Positions 13,767-29,184 of a stretch of 64,000 nt of DNA are shown one piece after another (the first letter of the stretch is position 1; the number at the start of each line of letters is the position of its first letter). Source of the stretch: Providencia sp. PROV188 (GTDB lineage Bacteria; Pseudomonadota; Gammaproteobacteria; Enterobacterales; Enterobacteriaceae); assembly GCF_027595165.1 (NCBI RefSeq), contig NZ_CP097291.1:1-64000 (forward strand), given 5' to 3'. The translations under genes were made by a program, and so were the position numbers. The notes beneath the pieces were generated by a model. That model saw only the letters and a list, made by a program, of their open reading frames with translations. It made no database searches and was not told the origin of the DNA.

Positions 13767-14678
13767 ATGTATTACGGCTTTGACATGGGCGGCACCAAAA
13801 TTGAATTAGCAGTGTTCGACCAAGCGCTCAATCAAGTGTGGCAAAAACGTGTTCCAACCCCCAAAGATGACTATCTCGCGTTGCTCAATGCTTTTCGTGA
13901 TTTAACGGCTGAAGCCGATGCGCAGTTTAACTGCCAAGGTAAAATTGGCATTGGTGTTCCGGGGATCGTCAATCACGCAGAAGGCGTGGTATTTACGACC
14001 AATGTCCCAAGCGCACAATATAAACCTTTCATTCATGACCTAACCAAGCTGTTAAATCGCCCCGTTAGAGTTGAAAATGATGCCAACTGCTTTGCCTTAT
14101 CAGAAGCGTGGGATCCTGAATTCAAGCGTTACCCTAGCGTGTTAGGTTTGATTCTGGGCACTGGTGTTGGTGGCGGTTTCGTCATCAACGGCAAGGTCTT
14201 ATCAGGGAAAAATGGCATTGCTGGGGAAATCGGACACATGAACATGAGTGTTCGTGCTGCAAAATATCTCGGGGACACCGTACCTGAAATTGTCTGTGGT
14301 TGCGGTCAAACAGCCTGTTTTGAAACCTACCTTTCAGGCCCCGGTTTCGAACGTATTTATGCCGCATTTACCGGTGAGAAACGCTCTGCTATCGAGATTA
14401 TTGAACGTTATCACAACGGTGACATCGCTGCGAAACAGCATGTTGAACGCTATATGATGGTGCTGGCGATGTTTATGGGGCAAGTTATTACTGTCTTTGA
14501 CCCTGACTTAGTGGTGATTGGCGGCGGCTTGTCACAATTTGATGAAATTTATCGCCTATTACCGGAAATGGTACCTCAATATCTTTATGGTATTGCGAAA
14601 ATGCCCGTTATCGAAAAAGCCCGTTATGGTGCCTCTGGTGGTGCCCGTGGTGCTGCATTTTTGAACCTGGTCGATTAA
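13767..14678 (+). CDS. nagK: N-acetyl-D-glucosamine kinase
   Basis: ROK-family sugar kinase that phosphorylates GlcNAc released in cell-wall recycling to GlcNAc-6-P. It has 303 residues, equal to E. coli NagK. The phosphate-binding motif FDMGGTKIEL is at residues 5-14. ENDANCFALSEAW, the catalytic-Asp region, follows. GTGVGGGFVINGKV and the zinc site GEIGHM / CGCGQTACFE come next. The C-terminal PDLVVIGGGLS motif is intact. The ribosome site is TTGAGGAAG, 7 nt before the ATG. It is monocistronic as far as seen. GlcNAc-6-P links to glmS/glmU and the amino-sugar pathway elsewhere in the window. Confidence 0.95.
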   Translation: MYYGFDMGGTKIELAVFDQALNQVWQKRVPTPKDDYLALLNAFRDLTAEADAQFNCQGKIGIGVPGIVNHAEGVVFTTNVPSAQYKPFIHDLTKLLNRPVRVENDANCFALSEAWDPEFKRYPSVLGLILGTGVGGGFVINGKVLSGKNGIAGEIGHMNMSVRAAKYLGDTVPEIVCGCGQTACFETYLSGPGFERIYAAFTGEKRSAIEIIERYHNGDIAAKQHVERYMMVLAMFMGQVITVFDPDLVVIGGGLSQFDEIYRLLPEMVPQYLYGIAKMPVIEKARYGASGGARGAAFLNLVD

Positions 14679-15107: not shown

Positions 15108-15746
15108 ATGAATTTGTTTTTAGAAAATTGCTTGGCTTTCCCGACCATTATCTTTAGCGGTTTACTGATTATTGTCCTGTTTTACTGGCTTTGTGCCGCT
15201 TTTGGTCTGTTAGATATTGATTTATTTAATATCGATACCGAATTAGATGCTGACGGCCTCGATCTCACTGGCTTTGCCGGCTGGCTGACAAAACTTGGTT
15301 TAGCCGGAATTCCCGTCACCATTATCTTGACGCTATTCACCCTCTTCGGCTGGCTGATTAGTTACTTTGCTGCGCATTTATTCCTACGCTTTATTGATAT
15401 GACCTTGCTGCGTTACGCCGTTGGAGTCACGTCGCTAGTGATCACCGCCTTTATTTCCCTGCACTTAACCGCCATTTGCCTAAAACCCATCCGTAGCCGA
15501 CTGGTTAATATTAATAAACCCAAAACGGTTCATCAGCTAATGGGAAAATTGGCAACCGTGCGCTCAGGGACTGTCACAGAACAAAATGGGGAAGCCACCT
15601 TAGAAGATGGCGGTGCGGGGCTGATTTTGCAGGTTAGAGCACCTAGCGCCGAAAATATTAAACGCGGGGATCGCGTCGTTATCATCAGTTATGACCCTCA
15701 ATCCCACAGTTACCAAATTGTCACCGAGAACGAATTCAGGCAGTAA
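15108..15746 (+). CDS. yqiJ: YqiJ family membrane protein (flotillin partner)
   Basis: Predicted inner-membrane protein of 212 residues. A first hydrophobic helix covers about residues 9-35, two more lie near 63-85 and 95-125, and a soluble C-terminal beta-rich segment (about 140-212: GKLATVRSGTV, GEATLEDGG, GDRVVIISYD) looks like the OB fold of YqiJ/NfeD-like proteins. In E. coli yqiJ sits directly upstream of yqiK, and NfeD-type proteins are standing partners of flotillins and stomatins. The same order is seen here, with a 74-bp gap to yqiK. Ribosome site AAAGAGAAA precedes the ATG. Molecular function is unknown; a role in flotillin membrane domains is an inference. Confidence 0.82.
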   Translation: MNLFLENCLAFPTIIFSGLLIIVLFYWLCAAFGLLDIDLFNIDTELDADGLDLTGFAGWLTKLGLAGIPVTIILTLFTLFGWLISYFAAHLFLRFIDMTLLRYAVGVTSLVITAFISLHLTAICLKPIRSRLVNINKPKTVHQLMGKLATVRSGTVTEQNGEATLEDGGAGLILQVRAPSAENIKRGDRVVIISYDPQSHSYQIVTENEFRQ

Positions 15747-15820
15747 ACACAAAAAATAAACTACCTACTTTGCTAATTAATAAAGAATGACGACATCGTC
15801 AGAACCCATGGAGAAGAAAT

Positions 15821-18022
15821 ATGGATTTGGCTGAATACATGCCTTTTTTAACGGTTGTTGGGGGAGTGATCATCATCATTCTTGGGTTCTTTGGTTTATT
15901 TAAAGCCTTCTACATCAAAGTCCCTCAAGGTACCGCTCTGATTGTCAACGACATGTCGTCACAACCAAAAGTGCATTTCACGGGTGCGTTAGTGTATCCC
16001 GTTATCTACAAGAAAGAGTTTATGCGCATTTCGCTGCTGACGCTGGAAGTGGATCGCCGTGGTAAAGACGGCTTAATTTGCCAAGATAATTTACGTGCAG
16101 ATATCACTGTTGCCTTCTATCTGCGTGTTAATGAAACCACTGAAGACGTATTAAAAGTAGCAAAAGCCATCGGTGTTGAGCGCGCCTCTGACCATCAAGC
16201 CGTCAGCGCCCTATTCAGCGCTAAATTCTCTGAAGCCCTGAAAACGGTTGGTAAGCAATTAGAATTAGCCAAACTGTTTGAAGACCGTCAAAGCTTCCGT
16301 GACCGTATTGTTGATGTGATTGGTAAAGACCTTAATGGTTACGCGCTAGAAGACGTAGCAATCGACTATTTAGAACAAACGCCGAAATCTGCCCTCGATC
16401 CGAATAATATTTTCGACTCCGAAGGTATTCGCAAAATCACTGAAATTACCGCTATCCACAATATCGAAACTAACCAAAAAGAGCGCGACCAAGAGTTAGC
16501 TATCAAAAAGAAAAACGTGGAAACCCGCGAAGCGAGCTTAGCATTAGAGCGCCAACAAGCCGACGCTGAAGCCCGTCAAAAACGTGAAATTGATAATATC
16601 CGTGCACGAGAACAAGCTGAAACCCTACGCGTTCAAGAAGAAGAGCGCCTCAAGTCAGAGCAAGCGCGTATTCAAACTCAGCAAGAAATTGAAATTCGTG
16701 AAGAAAACCGCATGCGTGAAGTGGAAGTGGCTCAACAGAACCGCACCCGCGCCGTGGCTATCGAAGAAGAGCGTGTCAACCGTGCTCGCGAGCTAGAAAT
16801 TGTCGCCCGTGAACGTGAAGTTGAGCTGCAACGTATTGAAAAAGAAAAAGCGCTAGAAGAAGAACGTAAAAACATCTCTAACGTGATCCGCGAACGTGTT
16901 GCCGTCGAAAAAACCGTCGCGCAGGAAGAGGAACGTATCAAGGAAGTCCGCGAAATTTCAGAAGCTGAGCGTATGAAGCAAGTCACCGTGATCAACGCCC
17001 AAGCGGAAGCTGAAGAAGCCTTAGTCCGCCAGGTGAAAAAAGCCGAAGCCGATGAAGCAAGTGCCAAGCACCGTGCAGAAGAAATCAGCACTATGGCACA
17101 AGCAGAACTGGAAGCTTCCGCCAAACAAGCTGAAGCCAAAAAACGCTTAGCGGAAGGGATTGAAGCAGAACATGCAGCATTAGGCTTAGCAGAAGCCCGT
17201 GTTCGCCAAGCCACTGCCGAAGCTGAAGAGAAAGAAGGTCTGGTTCAAGCCAATATCACCGCGGAAAAACTGTTAGCCGAAGCTCGTGGTCTGAAAGAAA
17301 AAGGCTTAACCGAAGCGCAAGTGATGGAAGCTAAAGCGAACGCCGAACGCGAGCAAGGTTTTGCCGAAGCGAAAATTCTGGAAGAAAAATTGGCAGCGCA
17401 GGCTCGTGGTGAAGAACAACAAGCCAACGCGAAAGAAAAACTGGGCTTGGCAGATGCAAAAGTCTTGGAAGAAAAACTGGCAGCCCAAGCTCGCGGTGAA
17501 GGTCAATTAGGGGCAGCGCAAGCCGAAGTGATTCGCCAGCGTCTGAAAGCGGAAGCTGACGGTCTGACTGATAAATTCCAATCTATGGATCACCTCAGTG
17601 ATACGGCTCGTTCACATGAAGAGTTCCGTATGCGCCTTGAGAAAGAGTTCGAGCAATCCATGGCATCCATTGAAGCGAATAAAGAAATTGCTCGCGAGCA
17701 AGCGGATGTCCTGGCTGCGGCACTGAGCAAAACCAACATCGAAATTGTGGGCGGTGATGGCGACTTCTTTAACACCTTCTCCAAAGCGCTGAGCTTGGGT
17801 AAAGCCGTTGATGGGTTTATGGATAAAAGTAGCTTTGCCAAAGATAACCTTGAAAAGTTAGTCAATCGAGTCACAGAAGAGAAGAAAATTGATATCGCGT
17901 CCTTACTGCAACACCCTGAAGTCAAAGATTTAATCAATGGTTTTATGGCTGCAAAAAGCGCACCACAAACAGCGAAAAACATCGTGAACAAACCCGTGTC
18001 TTACGATGATAACCAAAGCTAA
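15821..18022 (+). CDS. yqiK: Flotillin-like protein YqiK, long form
   Basis: Flotillin (SPFH/Band 7 family), 733 residues. An N-terminal membrane anchor lies at about 8-30 (VVGGVIIIILGFFGLF), the SPFH domain at about 32-210, and a very long Glu/Ala/Arg/Lys-rich coiled coil at about 215-640. Tandem repeats around EEKLAAQARGE (residues 521 and 550, 29-residue period) fall within the coil. A C-terminal segment of about 90 residues ends at 733. E. coli YqiK is about 553 residues, so the coil is extended. Flotillins form large membrane scaffolds in lipid domains. The gene is followed by a perfect intercistronic hairpin and the giant ATPase gene. Confidence 0.88.
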   Translation: MDLAEYMPFLTVVGGVIIIILGFFGLFKAFYIKVPQGTALIVNDMSSQPKVHFTGALVYPVIYKKEFMRISLLTLEVDRRGKDGLICQDNLRADITVAFYLRVNETTEDVLKVAKAIGVERASDHQAVSALFSAKFSEALKTVGKQLELAKLFEDRQSFRDRIVDVIGKDLNGYALEDVAIDYLEQTPKSALDPNNIFDSEGIRKITEITAIHNIETNQKERDQELAIKKKNVETREASLALERQQADAEARQKREIDNIRAREQAETLRVQEEERLKSEQARIQTQQEIEIREENRMREVEVAQQNRTRAVAIEEERVNRARELEIVAREREVELQRIEKEKALEEERKNISNVIRERVAVEKTVAQEEERIKEVREISEAERMKQVTVINAQAEAEEALVRQVKKAEADEASAKHRAEEISTMAQAELEASAKQAEAKKRLAEGIEAEHAALGLAEARVRQATAEAEEKEGLVQANITAEKLLAEARGLKEKGLTEAQVMEAKANAEREQGFAEAKILEEKLAAQARGEEQQANAKEKLGLADAKVLEEKLAAQARGEGQLGAAQAEVIRQRLKAEADGLTDKFQSMDHLSDTARSHEEFRMRLEKEFEQSMASIEANKEIAREQADVLAAALSKTNIEIVGGDGDFFNTFSKALSLGKAVDGFMDKSSFAKDNLEKLVNRVTEEKKIDIASLLQHPEVKDLINGFMAAKSAPQTAKNIVNKPVSYDDNQS

Positions 18023-18065
18023 TTTATCAATATTCAGGCTTTTCAAGTAAGTTTTATACCTCATC

Positions 18066-18098
18066 CCGCCAAGTTGCAGCACATAGGCAACTTGGCGG
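18066..18098 (+). terminator. Intercistronic hairpin between yqiK and the ATPase gene
   Basis: Perfect 12-bp inverted repeat CCGCCAAGTTGC / GCAACTTGGCGG with a 9-nt loop, followed only by TTTATGAG. It is strong as a hairpin but weak as an intrinsic terminator. It may be a partial terminator or an mRNA-stabilising or processing element that sets the flotillin-to-ATPase ratio. Confidence 0.6.
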
Positions 18099-18142
18099 TT
18101 TATGAGCGTATCTTTTTTTAAGACCAAGGAAATTCGTTAAAC

Positions 18143-21100
18143 ATGTCAGAAACCCAAGATGTGAATCGCGAACAGGAAATTCTCGACAGTGCCGTCGCGG
18201 AAGGTGGTGCGTACGAAATATTACGCAAGCGCTTAACCGAACAAGGGCAGCAACTTCACCAAAAAGCAGCTCAACTCAACGACAGCCGGTTGACTGAATT
18301 TGGTCAAAGCCAGATGGACATTATCGGGCGTATCCGTATTCGTACCGAAAATAACTGCCAAGCAAGGGACATTGTCCGTGTCGGTGACTGGCTGCTATTT
18401 GGCTATAACGTTTTTCTGGGTCTGAAAAAAGAAACTCACATTGAAGATGTTTTTTCCTTATATCAACTCACTGAAAATGAAGGTGATTTTGATGTAATCT
18501 CTGTCCCTTACGAAGAGACATTCCTCAATGATACGCGCTTTGTTCAGGATTTTACTGAGCTATATACCTATTACAAAAACACGCAATTACTGCAATTGGT
18601 CGAGCGTGATGGCAAGCTGTTAGCCAGCTTCCAAATTGGTGATCGGTTAACCGACGTGCGTGTTTTCCGCTGGTCAATTTCCAGCGATAAATCCCGCATC
18701 GAATACATCGATAACCGGGGTGAACGTGATATCGCCCTACCCCCCACCAATGATTTCGAATGGGTACGTACTACGCGGGAAAATACCGTTAATGGACGCT
18801 ATCCTCACATTAATATTCTCGATACCGTCTTTGTGGAAACCATCGGCGGCGACCTAACCATCAAATGTGAAAATAATACCGAAGATGGGTTGGGCATATA
18901 CCGCGAAGCGGTACTCGATAAAAACCAATCCCTCGATGACGCCCAAATTGAATATGCTCAGACTGGCAGCCTAATTTTACTCAAAATCTTGCCATACCGC
19001 GAAGAGAGCTGGCGCTATCTGGTTTACAACATTCTGAATCAAACCGTTCACCGTATTGATGCCATCGGGCAAGCGTGCGTGCAGTTGCCGGAAGATCACG
19101 GAATTATCTTCCCAGGGGGTTACTACCTGCAAAACGGGGAGTACAAAACCTTCGAGCAACCAATGGATGGCATGCGTTTTCGTCGTCTGCGCCGCTCACC
19201 CAACGGGGAAGATGTGCTGTATGTGTTTTATTCCCCGAACCAAGGTCGTATCGCCCTTTTCAATTACAATTTAATTAAACGTAAACTTGCCGTACCATTA
19301 ATCGGTCATGGTTATGCCATGCTCGAAGATGGCAAAATGGTGCTGTTCGAAGGGGAAGGTGACGAAGCCACTCGCGTTCACCCTATGCAGGTGTGGCAAA
19401 CCCCATTCTATTCTGACGAATTTGCCGATAAGCAGCCGCCACGGGGTGGGTTTCTTGGGCGTATCGGTAATGCCGATTTAGTCCGTGGGATCTCCGAAAT
19501 TCTCCATGTCGCCAAAGAGATTGAAGGCAACCAAGTTTCCGTTTCCCGCTATGAACAGCTCAGCCAGCAACCTAAAAACTTGCTGGATATTTTCTATTGG
19601 TTTAATGACGAACAATGCTTAGGTATTGGCAAACTCTTAAAAGAGATCGCCCAAACCAGTGAGTTGGTACTCGACGAATACGAGAAAGTCGAAAGCATCC
19701 GCCAGCAATCCGTCAAATCAATGAATGAGGCGGTCACTCGCCAACGCTCCTTACTGTCCCTCACATTGCCTGAAGGATGGACGGATATTCAACAATTTGT
19801 AGATGGGCTAAACGCCTTAAATGCCCAACAAGGGCATCTGATTTCATTGCGAGAATTCCGCTATATGGATCTCACAAAACTCAGTGAGATGGAAAATGAA
19901 ATCACCGAAGCACAGCAACGCGTTTCCCAAGGCACTGCGCAATTTCTTGCCAGCGACAAAGCTCTGCAACCGTTTAAAACTCAGCTCGCGACCTTTGAAG
20001 AGTTAATTGAAAAAGCACAAACCAGCGCGCAGTTAGATGTCCCAATGAATGACATGGAAAAAATGTCAGCGGATTTGGACATGCTCTCTAATTTAATGGC
20101 TTCATTGAGTTTTGATGATGTCACCTTACAGACCCATATCATCGATGCCATTTCGCACATTTATGCCCAGTTAAACCAGTCCCGCGCCCGTTTGCAGCAA
20201 AAACGTAAATCTCAAACTAGCATTGAGAGCGTGGCGCAATTTGGGGCGCAGTTCCGCCTATTTAGCCAAGGTATCACCAACGCATTATCCCTCGCGACTG
20301 ACCCAGAACGTTGTGATGATCAGTTATCCCGATTACTGGTTCAGTTAGAAGAGCTAGAAAGTCAGTTTAGCCATCACGATGAATTTCTTGATGATATTCT
20401 GGCAAAACGCGAAGAATTACTGGAAACGTTTGAATCCCATAAACAAATCCTGATTGATGACCGCCAGCGCCGTTCGCAGAATTTATTAACGGCCGCCGAC
20501 CGCTTATTAGAAAGCCTTCAACGCCGTACTGTACGCTTGCAAAACCAAGATGAACTGAATGCGTTTTTTGCTACCGACCCGCTCGCACAAAAAACCCGTG
20601 AAATCATCGAGAAACTACGAGAAATCAACGATAACGTCAAAGCTGACGATATCGATGCCAGACTCAAAGCCTCTCGTGACCAAGCCATTCGCATTTTGCG
20701 GGATAAAACCGATATCTTTGAAGATGGCGGCAACATTATTAAGCTGGGTCGCCACCGTTTCAGTGTTAACACCCAAGAGCTTGACCTGACTATCTTGCCA
20801 AAAGATAACCAGCTGTGGGTATACCTCACCGGAACGGATTTCCAAGAACCCATTGAGAACGCCGAACTTGCACAGTTGCAGCCTTATTGGACAGCCAACC
20901 TCGAATCCGAATCTGATACCGTTTATCGCGCTGAATACCTCGCGTATTCCATCATTTATGCCGCAGCAAAACGCCAAGATGGTTTGAATTTCGATACCCT
21001 AAAAAGTACGCTGTCTGCCCCTGAAAAAATCGACAAACTGGTGCGTGATTTTGCGGCTCCACGCTACAAAGAAGGCTACGAAAAAGGGATCCACGACCAC

Positions 21101-23080
21101 GACGCTATCGCGATATTGAAAAAGCTGATCCCGATTGGTGAAAGCGCGGATTTACTGCGTTTCAACCCAACAGCTCGCGCCATTGCGGCGATTTTTTGGC
21201 ATCACATTCAAAGCAACGAATACCCTGCCCAATGGCCAGAACGAGCCAGAACCGCGATGAATATCCGCCAGCTATTCAATAACGATGATGCCCTTTTAGA
21301 TCTTCAAGCGGAGATCGAGGCAGATGTCAGCTTATTCCTACAAGATAATCCAATTAATTGCCAAGCTCATGAGCAAGCTCAAGCTGCGGAATACCTCAGT
21401 TTTGCGTTAGCCAGAACGCCGATTGAATTGGTGTACAGCAAATATGCGCGGGACTTAGTGGCAGCACTACAAACGCGCTTAGAAGAAGCCCATATGTGGC
21501 TGGATTTCAATCATTCACAGCAAAACCTTGGCACTCGCTATGCTCAGCGCTGGGCGCTGTTGCAAAATTGGCTGCAAGGGCTGTGTTCGATTGACGAATT
21601 TGCACATTTACGTCCATACATTCCAGGCGCCATCGCCATTATTATCTTAGATAAAATGGCATCGGCACGTTATAGCGAAGCCGATTTATACTTTAAAGTT
21701 ACTGGATTACTGGGGGATCACCCGACAATCCACAACCAAACTCTCTCGTTAAGTTTGGATGACTTTTTCAGTCGAATGCGCGAACAGCGCAAGCAATTTA
21801 TTCCAGCCTTCCGTCAATACCAAGCACTGCGTCAGCGCATTGTGAGTGAAGAGCGCAGCCGCCTAAAACTTCATGAGTTCAAAGCTAAGCCACTGAGCTC
21901 ATTTGTGCGTAACAAGCTGATCAATGACGTCTATTTACCGATTATCGGTGACAACATGGCGAAGCAAATTGGCGCTCTAGGCGAAAACAAGCGTACCGAT
22001 TTAATGGGCTTGTTACTGATGATCTCCCCGCCAGGTTACGGTAAAACGACCCTGATGGAGTACGCGGCTGACCGCCTTGGTTTGATCTTTATGAAGATTA
22101 ATGGTCCTGCGCTTGGGCATGATGTGCTGTCCCTCGACCCAGAGCAAGCCCCGAATGCTACCGCCAGACAAGAGCTGGAAAAACTAAACCTCGCCCTCGA
22201 AATGGGCAACAACGTGATGCTGTATGTGGATGATATTCAACATACTCACCCTGAGTTTTTACAAAAATTTATCTCCCTGTGTGATGGAACCCGTCGCATC
22301 GAAGGGGTATGGAAAAACAAAACCAAAACCTACGATATGCGCGGTAAAAAATTCTGTGTTGTCATGGCGGGTAACCCGTATACCGAATCTGGCGAAGTGT
22401 TCCGTATCCCTGATATGCTCGCCAACCGTGCGGATATTTATAACCTGGGTGAAGTGCTCGGTGGGATGGATGATGCCTTTGCATTGAGCTACATAGAAAA
22501 CAGCCTGACCTCAAACCCAGTATTAGCACCGTTGGCGCTGCGCGATTTAAATGATTTGTATTTGCTGGTGGATAAAGCCATGGGCAAATCAGTCTCCACT
22601 AATGCACTCAGCTACCCGTATTCCGATGCGGAAGTAAATGAAATTACTGCGGTTATTTCCCGATTACTCAGCCTGCGCGATGTGGTTCTGAAGGTAAACC
22701 AGCAATATATTGCCAGTGCCGCACAGTCCGATAAATATCGAACCGAGCCGGCATTCCGCCTGCAAGGCAGCTACCGAAATATGAACAAGCTCAGCGAGAA
22801 AGTCTCTTCCGTTATGAATGATGATGAATTAGAGAGATTGCTGGATGACCATTATCTTGGGGAAGCGCAATTATTAACGACAGGTGCTGAAGAGAACTTA
22901 TTGAAGCTGGCAGAATTACGCGGAAGGCTGAATGAGAAAGATGCAGCACGCTGGCAGCAAATCAAGAAAGATTTCTTGCGTAACAAAGCATTAGGTGGTG
23001 ATAATGCCGATGTGGGCGACCGCGTTGTGACTCAGCTCGCCCAACTGGTTGAAAGCGTACAATCTCTCGGACATCGATAA
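18143..23080 (+). CDS. Giant AAA-type ATPase of the DUF3686 family
   Basis: A 1645-residue protein, probably cytoplasmic, related as I recall it to the family labelled 'DNA repair ATPase' (DUF3686). The label is not experimental to my knowledge. About residues 1-480 are beta-rich and repetitive and may form a propeller (inference). About 500-860 is predicted coiled coil. A mixed helical region follows, then a C-terminal AAA module. Walker A is SPPGYGKTT with K1301 and T1302, and Walker B is LYVDDIQ with D1363 and D1364. A conserved VVMAGNPYTESG segment resembles sensor 1. No membrane segment is seen. It lies 120 bp after the flotillin gene, and its stop overlaps the rhomboid start by 1 nt (TAATG), which implies coupled translation with the protease. 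Confidence 0.8.
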   Translation: MSETQDVNREQEILDSAVAEGGAYEILRKRLTEQGQQLHQKAAQLNDSRLTEFGQSQMDIIGRIRIRTENNCQARDIVRVGDWLLFGYNVFLGLKKETHIEDVFSLYQLTENEGDFDVISVPYEETFLNDTRFVQDFTELYTYYKNTQLLQLVERDGKLLASFQIGDRLTDVRVFRWSISSDKSRIEYIDNRGERDIALPPTNDFEWVRTTRENTVNGRYPHINILDTVFVETIGGDLTIKCENNTEDGLGIYREAVLDKNQSLDDAQIEYAQTGSLILLKILPYREESWRYLVYNILNQTVHRIDAIGQACVQLPEDHGIIFPGGYYLQNGEYKTFEQPMDGMRFRRLRRSPNGEDVLYVFYSPNQGRIALFNYNLIKRKLAVPLIGHGYAMLEDGKMVLFEGEGDEATRVHPMQVWQTPFYSDEFADKQPPRGGFLGRIGNADLVRGISEILHVAKEIEGNQVSVSRYEQLSQQPKNLLDIFYWFNDEQCLGIGKLLKEIAQTSELVLDEYEKVESIRQQSVKSMNEAVTRQRSLLSLTLPEGWTDIQQFVDGLNALNAQQGHLISLREFRYMDLTKLSEMENEITEAQQRVSQGTAQFLASDKALQPFKTQLATFEELIEKAQTSAQLDVPMNDMEKMSADLDMLSNLMASLSFDDVTLQTHIIDAISHIYAQLNQSRARLQQKRKSQTSIESVAQFGAQFRLFSQGITNALSLATDPERCDDQLSRLLVQLEELESQFSHHDEFLDDILAKREELLETFESHKQILIDDRQRRSQNLLTAADRLLESLQRRTVRLQNQDELNAFFATDPLAQKTREIIEKLREINDNVKADDIDARLKASRDQAIRILRDKTDIFEDGGNIIKLGRHRFSVNTQELDLTILPKDNQLWVYLTGTDFQEPIENAELAQLQPYWTANLESESDTVYRAEYLAYSIIYAAAKRQDGLNFDTLKSTLSAPEKIDKLVRDFAAPRYKEGYEKGIHDHDAIAILKKLIPIGESADLLRFNPTARAIAAIFWHHIQSNEYPAQWPERARTAMNIRQLFNNDDALLDLQAEIEADVSLFLQDNPINCQAHEQAQAAEYLSFALARTPIELVYSKYARDLVAALQTRLEEAHMWLDFNHSQQNLGTRYAQRWALLQNWLQGLCSIDEFAHLRPYIPGAIAIIILDKMASARYSEADLYFKVTGLLGDHPTIHNQTLSLSLDDFFSRMREQRKQFIPAFRQYQALRQRIVSEERSRLKLHEFKAKPLSSFVRNKLINDVYLPIIGDNMAKQIGALGENKRTDLMGLLLMISPPGYGKTTLMEYAADRLGLIFMKINGPALGHDVLSLDPEQAPNATARQELEKLNLALEMGNNVMLYVDDIQHTHPEFLQKFISLCDGTRRIEGVWKNKTKTYDMRGKKFCVVMAGNPYTESGEVFRIPDMLANRADIYNLGEVLGGMDDAFALSYIENSLTSNPVLAPLALRDLNDLYLLVDKAMGKSVSTNALSYPYSDAEVNEITAVISRLLSLRDVVLKVNQQYIASAAQSDKYRTEPAFRLQGSYRNMNKLSEKVSSVMNDDELERLLDDHYLGEAQLLTTGAEENLLKLAELRGRLNEKDAARWQQIKKDFLRNKALGGDNADVGDRVVTQLAQLVESVQSLGHR

Positions 23081-23658
23081 TGCAAACTTGGCTAAGCCCG
23101 CGAATTAAATTACTGATTACCCTTGCGGGTTTGCTGATCACTATTCAAATCGCCAATAGTTTAAGTGGCTACGCGCTTGTTGGGTTCGGCATCCAACCAA
23201 GAACACTGCACGGGCTGGTGGGGATTATCTTCGCCCCTCTGATCCACGGTGATTGGGCACATCTTCTGAGTAATCTGCCGCCATTACTGGTTTTAAGCGC
23301 CCTGCTGCTGCATGATTCCATTCGAAAATATGCTTATGCCAGCGCGTTTATTATTGTGGTTGGCGGCTTGATTGTCTGGCTAGTGGGCAGAAATGCGCTA
23401 CACATTGGCGCTAGCGGCTGGATTTTTGGGCTTTGGGGCTTATTGATTGCCCAAGGTTTTTTCCGCCGAAAACTGTTAGATATCATTATTGCCCTGTTAG
23501 TACTGTTCTATTTTGGCGCGATGGCGAGCGGGTTATTGCCTGTTCATCAACAAATATCGACAGAATCCCATATTGCCGGCGCCATCGCCGGAATTACCTA
23601 TGCGTGGTTAGCCAATAAAAAATTAAAAGCGACGCCGCCGACTACCCTTTCAAAGTAA
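23080..23658 (+). CDS. Rhomboid-family intramembrane serine protease
   Basis: Small membrane protein of 192 residues with six hydrophobic segments. The catalytic dyad is visible: Ser112 in G110-A-S-G113 and His164 in ESHIAGAIAG. The HxxxN oxyanion motif is H61-LLS-N65. The domain is a minimal six-TM rhomboid without extra domains. It differs from GlpG, which has a cytosolic N-terminal domain. Its ATG overlaps the stop of the ATPase gene (TAATG), so it belongs to the same operon. A role in processing a membrane partner of the flotillin/ATPase system is an inference. Its 3' end overlaps the convergent regulator gene by 17 nt. Confidence 0.85.
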   Translation: MQTWLSPRIKLLITLAGLLITIQIANSLSGYALVGFGIQPRTLHGLVGIIFAPLIHGDWAHLLSNLPPLLVLSALLLHDSIRKYAYASAFIIVVGGLIVWLVGRNALHIGASGWIFGLWGLLIAQGFFRRKLLDIIIALLVLFYFGAMASGLLPVHQQISTESHIAGAIAGITYAWLANKKLKATPPTTLSK

Positions 23659-28233: not shown

Positions 28234-29184
28234 ATGAATAGAATAAGTAATGGGTGTACAAATAAAATATCTCAGCCACATATTGAACAAAACCAATCCG
28301 CTTTGGCGAAACCTAAAAATAAAAAAAACGGGTTTATAGAGAGAGTAAACAGGTTATTTAATACCAACTTGTTTAATACATTGTTAAAACATCCCAAGAA
28401 AACAAAAAATACAGAAATCATCCCTTCCCATCAAAGTTTCGTAAAGCTGACAATACCAGAGAATCCTTCTCCGCAAAAAATAGAAAAAAATACGAATTTA
28501 GCGCCAAACAAAGTACACATTGAACCGATCGTACATATTGAGCCTATAATCGCAAAAATAGTACCAAGCGAAATAGACCAGTTCACAGAAAAGTTGCATC
28601 GTCTCAATATCATCTTTAAAAATGATGCGTTCGGCGCTGATCATCGACCTATCTTTTTAGTCAAAAATCACTCGACATGTCGCGCGCGCTCCCTCAGCAA
28701 ACACAATGAACTTGGTGAGGAGGAATATGGCACGCTCACCCTCAACATGCGTCATTATCTTGGTAAAGGGGAATATGGAACCGCCTATCGCGTGGGTAAC
28801 TTTGCGATTAAAATTCCTCATCGCGATTTAAACTTTAAATACAATAAATATGCGAAATACGATCGCTGCGCCAGAGTATTAAATGAGGTAAATCAAGATA
28901 TTAACTTTGCACGATCTACTACGCTCGCAAATGGCAATGCCATTTTAGTCACTAAGTTTATTGATGGGAGATCGATAACAGGCAAGGAGGCTTCTGGTTT
29001 TGTTGAATCCCGGGGACGCACTCTTTTTGATCATGGCTCCGAAGGCAACGTAAGAAAAGATAGGCAAAAAAATCTGTTTTTAATTGATGCTGATTTTGCT
29101 GCGCAACCTAACCAGCTAAATCGCACCCTGTCTATAGGTACCATTAAAATCTATAAGCGTTATGAAAATAACGATATCCGTTAG
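28234..29184 (+). CDS. Protein-kinase-like protein, possible secreted effector
   Basis: 316-residue protein. Residues 1-110 are polar, Lys/Asn/Pro-rich and probably disordered, with a VHIEPI tandem. From about 170 a minimal kinase fold is visible: glycine loop G177-K-G-E-Y-G182, Lys193 in AIKIP, a helix-C Glu candidate E218, a hinge near ILVTKFIDG, a catalytic-loop-like DHGSEGN (266-272), and LIDAD with Asp285 in the DFG position, 13 residues after Asn272. The canonical catalytic Asp position is His267, with Asp266 beside it. Only about 30 residues follow Asp285, so the usual C-lobe is missing, as in the type III effectors OspG and NleH. The gene is A-rich compared with its neighbours, suggesting transfer. 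Secretion is an inference. Confidence 0.65.
   Translation: MNRISNGCTNKISQPHIEQNQSALAKPKNKKNGFIERVNRLFNTNLFNTLLKHPKKTKNTEIIPSHQSFVKLTIPENPSPQKIEKNTNLAPNKVHIEPIVHIEPIIAKIVPSEIDQFTEKLHRLNIIFKNDAFGADHRPIFLVKNHSTCRARSLSKHNELGEEEYGTLTLNMRHYLGKGEYGTAYRVGNFAIKIPHRDLNFKYNKYAKYDRCARVLNEVNQDINFARSTTLANGNAILVTKFIDGRSITGKEASGFVESRGRTLFDHGSEGNVRKDRQKNLFLIDADFAAQPNQLNRTLSIGTIKIYKRYENNDIR

Follow-up and report, generated by a model that had tools for sequence, protein, structure and literature searches.

Gene content and predicted proteins of the locus

The window analysed here, the first 64 kb (64,000 nucleotides) of the 3.88-Mb Providencia sp. PROV188 contig NZ_CP097291.1, contains a run of four plus-strand genes encoding a YqiJ-like membrane protein, a flotillin, a giant DUF3686 AAA+ ATPase and a small rhomboid protease (Table 1). 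A sequence-only reading of the window had proposed this run as a candidate membrane system. The four open reading frames (ORFs) and the TAATG coupling of the last two were found as it described them, and comparison across genomes points to a conserved membrane-associated gene set in which the ATPase and the flotillin form a near-constant pair, with the rhomboid as an addition.

The first three genes are separated by gaps of 74 nt and 120 nt, and the ATPase and rhomboid genes overlap by 1 nt in the sequence GATAATGC, which holds the stop codon TAA and the start codon ATG. Because of this spacing, the four genes are likely co-transcribed. No terminator-like site was detected on the plus strand in the two intergenic gaps, although such a scan is weak evidence, and promoter-like sites were fewer than in shuffled sequence (8 versus 15.1).

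The YqiJ identity of the first product is weak by sequence, with a Pfam YqiJ_N score of 16.6 bits (cut-off 23) and 22% identity to Escherichia coli YqiJ (BLASTP E 0.062), and operon position is its main basis. The second product is, judging from its homology to E. coli YqiK (28% identity over 454 positions, E 2e-44), a divergent SPFH protein, in agreement with the flotillin named in the sequence-only reading. Band_7 was barely above the cut-off when residues 1-260 were scanned (24.4 versus 23.6 bits) and gave no match on a whole-protein scan, while the C-terminal flotillin domain PF15975 reached 14.5 bits (cut-off 27; E 0.04). By eye, the protein has an N-terminal hydrophobic segment and a long coiled-coil-like middle. 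A stretch resembling IDIVGG...(F/Y)F...GK.(V/I)(D/N) lies in its C-terminal tail, and an IVGG-type tail is common to most of 29 diverse ATPase-linked flotillins that were aligned, including copies from Actinomycetota, Bacteroidota and an Akkermansiaceae metagenome-assembled genome (MAG); E. coli YqiK retains only the VGG. A strict regular expression for this motif matched 61 of 81 flotillins, but was too strict, as many of the 20 misses carry the motif with Y or a shifted F. We propose the conserved tail as a putative docking site.

In the ATPase, the Walker A motif reads PPGYGKT with K1301 and the Walker B motif holds D1363-D1364, the residues listed by the earlier reading; PPGYGKT and DDIQ are identical in 26/26 aligned ATPases, window included. 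The structure prediction that this reading had called for yielded models with a propeller, long helices and an AAA+ fold. No peptidase family was found among its eight Pfam matches up to E 0.1. A PDB sequence search with the ATPase returned weak P-loop matches only, and at E 0.1 there was no match for YqiJ, the flotillin or the rhomboid. The closest named ATPases are those of Providencia alcalifaciens (98-99%) and of the P. rettgeri PROV023 record (99%), and no match was obtained in E. coli genomes by megablast, which distant relatives could escape. Databases name the protein a 'DNA repair ATPase', yet its constant neighbours are membrane proteins. We found no support for a DNA repair function: no DNA-binding or nuclease domain scored above cut-off, and RuvB models matched just weakly near the P-loop. 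That label had already been called unsupported in the earlier reading.

The rhomboid serine S112 (in GASG) and histidine H164, also named beforehand, are invariant in a 16-row alignment, and both catalytic residues are kept in 40/40 sequences (36 operonic, some near-identical, and four relatives). The GxSG serine and distal histidine of active rhomboids are present, and protease activity is predicted. We built a model from 27 of the operonic copies, which scored 138-314 bits on 36 operonic rhomboids. Of the 26 non-operon rhomboids in ten genomes and the window's own, the 13 whose genes could be extracted intact gave at most 34 bits or no match. On these scores, the operonic rhomboids belong to a recognisable subfamily; its relatives away from the operon score 103-297 bits, and its 100-bit threshold was chosen after viewing the score gap (76 to 105 bits). 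The window's genome has three rhomboids and the ten other genomes have 2-5 each. One genome with an operonic copy has a second, unlinked subfamily rhomboid (G076:C113:9-539, 153 bits). Rhombosortase (TIGR03902), similar to the window rhomboid in size and rhomboid fold, was rejected as an identity, since the cut-off of its model is 84 bits and the window protein scored 29, with 37 and 36 bits for two relatives.

Table 1. Features of the YqiJ-flotillin-ATPase-rhomboid locus, in window coordinates (aa, amino acids)
Feature	Coordinates	Strand	Basis
YqiJ-like membrane protein, 212 aa	15108..15746	+	ORF; position common to 79/82 loci
Flotillin/SPFH protein, 733 aa	15821..18022	+	ORF; Band_7; YqiK homology
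DUF3686/DUF7902 AAA+ ATPase, 1645 aa	18143..23080	+	PF12458 666.5 bits, PF25472 87.1 bits; AAA_5 and AAA above cut-off
DUF3686 region, aa 38-485; predicted beta-propeller core, ~aa 57-421	18254..19597	+	
AAA+ core, aa 1260-1435	21920..22447	+	
Walker A, aa 1296-1302	22028-22048	+	
Walker B, aa 1358-1364	22214-22234	+	
ATPase-rhomboid junction, overlapping stop and start codons (TAATG)	23078..23082	+	
Small rhomboid protease, 192 aa	23080..23658	+	PF01694 68.9 bits
Rhomboid Ser112	23413-23415	+	
Rhomboid His164	23569-23571	+	
nagK (N-acetylglucosamine kinase), upstream boundary, outside the system	13767..14678	+	NF009835 446.7 bits, cut-off 380

Conservation of the YqiJ-flotillin-ATPase cassette

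We collected 85 loci (the window, 57 from first scans, 10 from plasmid records and 17 from order and class panels), of which 82 were distinct after removing three duplicates, and scored all with the same models. In this sample, centred on the ATPase, a flotillin gene was present in 81/82 DUF3686 loci from five phyla, lying -200 to 500 nt upstream of the ATPase in 80, and the order YqiJ-flotillin-ATPase was found in 79. Given this conserved gene order, the arrangement is more than chance. The linkage reaches Actinomycetota, Deinococcota, Bacteroidota and an Akkermansiaceae MAG, and independently annotated records name the ATPase neighbour SPFH or flotillin. Two Streptomyces plasmids (L108, L111) have no recognised YqiJ, and a single locus (L059) has an ATPase with neither flotillin nor YqiJ beside it.

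PspA was detected in 19/82 stretches and YjfI/CesT in 23/82; the same numbers were obtained for the 49 loci outside a hand-compiled set of 33 Morganellaceae/Budviciaceae-type loci. A phospholipase-D-like gene was present in 12/82 loci. We also noticed a TFIIB-type zinc-ribbon gene near the cassette in 11/82 (including L083, L101, L105 and L116), with PF13453 in the L083 copy.

This core is not new, having been predicted before. Ravi et al. 2024 (PMC11237479) proposed from genomic context an envelope-stress operon linked to PspA/YjfI, in which the CesT/Tir-PspA dyad is accompanied by three further products: a band-7/flotillin protein, YqiJ/YuaF, and an AAA+ ATPase whose N-terminal part has a coiled coil and propeller repeats. 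Some Proteobacteria add a gene for phospholipase D. Abbreviated operons without PspA are widespread, and for these the authors suggest that PspA is supplied in trans. The window operon corresponds to it in its three core proteins, the YqiJ-like one mainly by operon position, and in domain make-up: its scaffold protein has the Band-7/SPFH domain, and its ATPase matches PF12458 and AAA_5 and has a predicted propeller and helices. It differs from the full operon in lacking the CesT/Tir(YjfI)-PspA dyad, which is absent from the stretch, and in having a rhomboid, a word with 0 occurrences in the main text of PMC11237479. The rhomboid as a recurrent separable partner, together with the deletion junction described below, is the addition made here to the published core.

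The yqiJ-yqiK pair of E. coli, described as an SPFH-NfeD-type operon (Hinderhofer et al. 2009, PMC2636767), likewise couples YqiJ and SPFH proteins, but in MG1655 neither an ATPase nor a rhomboid lies alongside, and both words have 0 occurrences in that article. E. coli YqiK also has 553 residues and a strong Flot domain, whereas the window flotillin is longer and its Flot score weak. The Shewanella yqiK relative SO1377 is reported to affect iron metabolism and peroxide sensitivity (PMC1468410). Rhomboid and ATPase have 0 occurrences in the main text of a 2026 SPFH study of P. aeruginosa (PMC13086221). In the open-licence literature, supplements aside, we found no paper on DUF3686 and none on a 'DNA repair ATPase' with flotillin, and among the matches listed no title or abstract start linked rhomboid with flotillin, PspA or phage-shock.

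The ATPase is sparse in broad samples, with 8/398 genomes in the phylum panel and 10/369 in the class panel, and it occurs in 18/145 genomes of the order of genome G278, which we assumed to be Pseudomonadales; all these counts include the genomes at the centres of the panels. It is present in 23/24 genomes of the window's genus, that of the window included, and one copy (G012) is broken. In that genome (G012:C1:19450-24382) the ATPase gene is split over two matches, and the larger one contains a pair of in-frame TAA codons, which may reflect decay or assembly error. Twelve plasmid records have an ATPase match, two of them chromosome-sized; NZ_OL790811 and NZ_OL790812 are 4.1-Mb Proteus mirabilis records filed as plasmids and are chromosome-like in size.

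This patchiness across Pseudomonadota and the presence on some plasmids would suit an anti-phage or conflict system, a role that the sequence-only reading had also considered. PADLOC, however, returned 0 families at E 0.1 for 4/4 proteins, and the near-constant occurrence within the genus, with nagK upstream and a regulator-like and a major facilitator superfamily (MFS) gene downstream, argues against defence, which we regard as extremely unlikely. The regulator-like gene is convergent and overlaps the end of the rhomboid gene by 17 nt. Elsewhere in the window, an ORF of 316 residues at 28234-29181 has no Pfam match and shows protein-kinase-like stretches by eye.

The rhomboid as a recurrent and separable partner

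A rhomboid is encoded in 34 of the 82 stretches and is the immediate next gene in 26. Adjacency was found in 18/33 Morganellaceae/Budviciaceae-type loci and in 8 of the 49 others; a further three of these 49 have the gene elsewhere in the stretch. Within these ATPase-centred loci, the earlier expectation that both the ATPase and the rhomboid would regularly accompany yqiJK was borne out for the ATPase but only in part for the rhomboid. Three gene orders occur, with the rhomboid after the ATPase, between PspA and YqiJ (L054), or, on plasmid pQBR103 (L102), flanked by PspA and DUF2491 within ten consecutive genes.

Seventeen of the 34 distinct rhomboid loci were taken into a Mantel test, in which ATPase and rhomboid distances correlated (r 0.774, permutation p 2e-4), as they did in the 11 loci outside the Morganellaceae/Budviciaceae set (r 0.651, p 0.005). 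The ATPase-flotillin correlations were similar (0.797 and 0.703, respectively). In a rhomboid tree that excluded 12 of the 36 operonic rows as near-relatives, along with a broken P. amygdali rhomboid, one clade of 25 rows contained 20 operonic ones (support 92/87). YjfI-PspA was present in 5/24 stretches around rhomboids without an intact adjacent ATPase gene; these came from 27 subfamily members without an adjacent ATPase, all but G840, G853 and G076:C113.

The separability of the rhomboid is best illustrated by a genome of the same genus, G004, where the cassette is absent between nagK and an intact rhomboid gene (L192, G004:C30:39001-58000). No ATPase match was found in this genome, and none of the three cassette genes within the 19 kb around the rhomboid, the only region in which flotillin and YqiJ were sought. 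The rhomboid start lies 15 nt after the nagK stop. Immediately before this start codon the sequence reads CGGACATCAATAATG; the 3' end of the window ATPase gene reads CGGACATCGATAATG, and 11/12 bases match, with a single mismatch, although so short a match is not proof of a deletion. Because of this ATPase-like 3' scar and the position of the G004 rhomboid as sister to that of the window (100/98), the junction is most simply explained by deletion of YqiJ, flotillin and ATPase as a block, with the rhomboid kept.

Similar situations were found elsewhere. In a Proteus mirabilis record, the ATPase of the cassette is about 0.5 Mb away and a 56%-identical rhomboid still stands behind nagK, and in G035 a 58-residue ATPase remnant lies upstream of the rhomboid. 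On pQBR103, the cassette has a gene for glutathionylspermidine synthase on one side and an mvaT-like gene on the other, and these two are adjacent on the related P. amygdali plasmid pPlaYM7902A (L137). The latter is not among the 12 plasmid records with an ATPase match; its rhomboid matches in two pieces and is unannotated. These differences in several genomes and in a plasmid pair identify the cassette as a unit and the rhomboid as a partly independent partner.

The nagK-rhomboid pairs of G004 and Proteus mirabilis could also be taken to mean that the cassette was inserted into a pre-existing pair, which would make the rhomboid a chance neighbour. Such an insertion is disfavoured by the G004 scar and nested sister rhomboid, more simply the product of deletion, and by ATPase-rhomboid adjacency in eight loci outside the family, and we consider it very unlikely. 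The rhomboid is a recurrent, optional and separable partner of the ATPase cassette.

A candidate role at the inner membrane

That the ATPase is constantly paired with flotillin, and often accompanied by PspA, speaks for a process at the inner membrane that is driven by ATP. The function that we infer for the four-gene system is envelope maintenance with trimming by the rhomboid and, on balance, we lean towards regarding the locus as an abbreviated, PspA-less YqiJ-flotillin-AAA+ module of this kind, whose accessory rhomboid would trim clients of the platform. Flotillin and YqiJ would oligomerise into a platform on the inner membrane, facing the cytoplasm. A ring of the ATPase would be recruited there through its propeller and coiled-coil half, for which the conserved flotillin tail might be the docking point, and would spend ATP on remodelling or taking apart a client where the membrane is damaged. 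This client may be a complex of membrane proteins or a PspA (ESCRT-III-like) polymer, provided in trans from pspABC. The rhomboid would cleave client transmembrane helices exposed on the platform and might keep a reduced role after platform loss. The window's genome has one PspA gene, at C1:1601580, with neighbours read by eye as pspF, pspB and pspC, and this gene could supply PspA in trans.

Several observations weigh against this interpretation. The window operon has no PspA of its own, and the flotillin and YqiJ models used on the neighbourhoods derive from the same loci in which they were scored. Whether or not a locus has a rhomboid, its flotillin N-terminus looks the same and therefore indicates no substrate; flotillin, whose N-terminal hydrophobic segment is alike by eye in both groups, was set aside as a candidate rhomboid substrate. 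The rhomboid is absent from 48/82 stretches (some ended by contig edges) and outlasts the loss of the cassette in G004, and thus it is not an obligate component. Operonic rhomboids do not form one clade: their tree has seven label changes, at least four forced by well-supported branches, so the association has been gained or lost several times. Subfamily members above 100 bits also occur in genomes without the ATPase (12 in the order panel, seven in other families of the window's order and two in the window's own family), and unlinked members reach 283-297 bits with the operon model.

Co-occurrence was assessed in genome sets entered by hand. The rhomboid subfamily was detected in 10/18 order-panel genomes with the ATPase versus 12/127 without it (Fisher p 1.7e-5), but this panel supplied seven of the 16 rows in search model A3, which partly builds in its detection there. 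The genomes compared throughout are related, so that p-values overstate independence. For other families of the window's order no significant co-occurrence was obtained (3/6 versus 7/33, p 0.16). The window's own family, where one genus dominates, gave 24/24 with the ATPase versus 2/36 without.

A Vps4-like mechanism would instead have the ATPase disassemble PspA filaments at flotillin domains, with the rhomboid as a passenger that shares the promoter. We find it unlikely, considering that PspA is missing from 63/82 ATPase stretches and that the linkage of the rhomboid recurs in several orders and lineages and co-diverges with the ATPase, which makes the rhomboid unlike a passenger.

Alternatively, the ATPase could be a MoxR-like assembly chaperone: instead of repairing membranes, it would insert one particular enzyme complex into the membrane, or activate it, at the flotillin platform. 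NorQ and CbbQ were among the top Foldseek matches, although weak (E 4e-4 to 7e-4), and VIA-align matched them over 221-237 residues. Yet the root-mean-square deviation was 7-9 Å, and p97, FtsH, Vps4 and NorQ/CbbQ tie in structure comparison, with the Z-scores of p97 and FtsH level with those of NorQ and CbbQ. Moreover, beyond YqiJ, flotillin and rhomboid, no neighbour family occurred in more than 16/58 loci (VWA genes were not sought), and thus no constant enzyme partner is seen. A chaperone of this type appears quite unlikely.

The envelope-maintenance module favoured here is possibly analogous to a mitochondrial hub. SLP2 is an SPFH protein. In the SLP2-PARL-YME1L complex (PMC5795276), a rhomboid protease and an AAA+ protein are assembled with this scaffold, and the same protein kinds are encoded in the window. 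YME1L is an AAA protease, whereas the window ATPase shows no peptidase domain. A bacterial parallel to the window pair may be offered by YqgP-FtsH of Bacillus subtilis, in which a rhomboid and an AAA machine cooperate in the quality control of membrane proteins (PMC7231995); FtsH is a protease, and flotillin is not named in the available part of that paper. By these analogies, the operon might encode a membrane quality-control hub of SPFH scaffold, propeller-AAA+ and rhomboid, in which PspA/ESCRT-III filaments would work alongside and extraction and cutting would be split between the ATPase and the rhomboid, a possibility that we regard as doubtful.

Linking the ATPase to flotillin, PspA and rhomboid suggests a testable role for three poorly understood bacterial families, for which the natural deletions provide ready-made comparisons. 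If the hub does exist, cooperation between SPFH proteins, rhomboids and AAA+ machines would occur in bacteria as well as in mitochondria.

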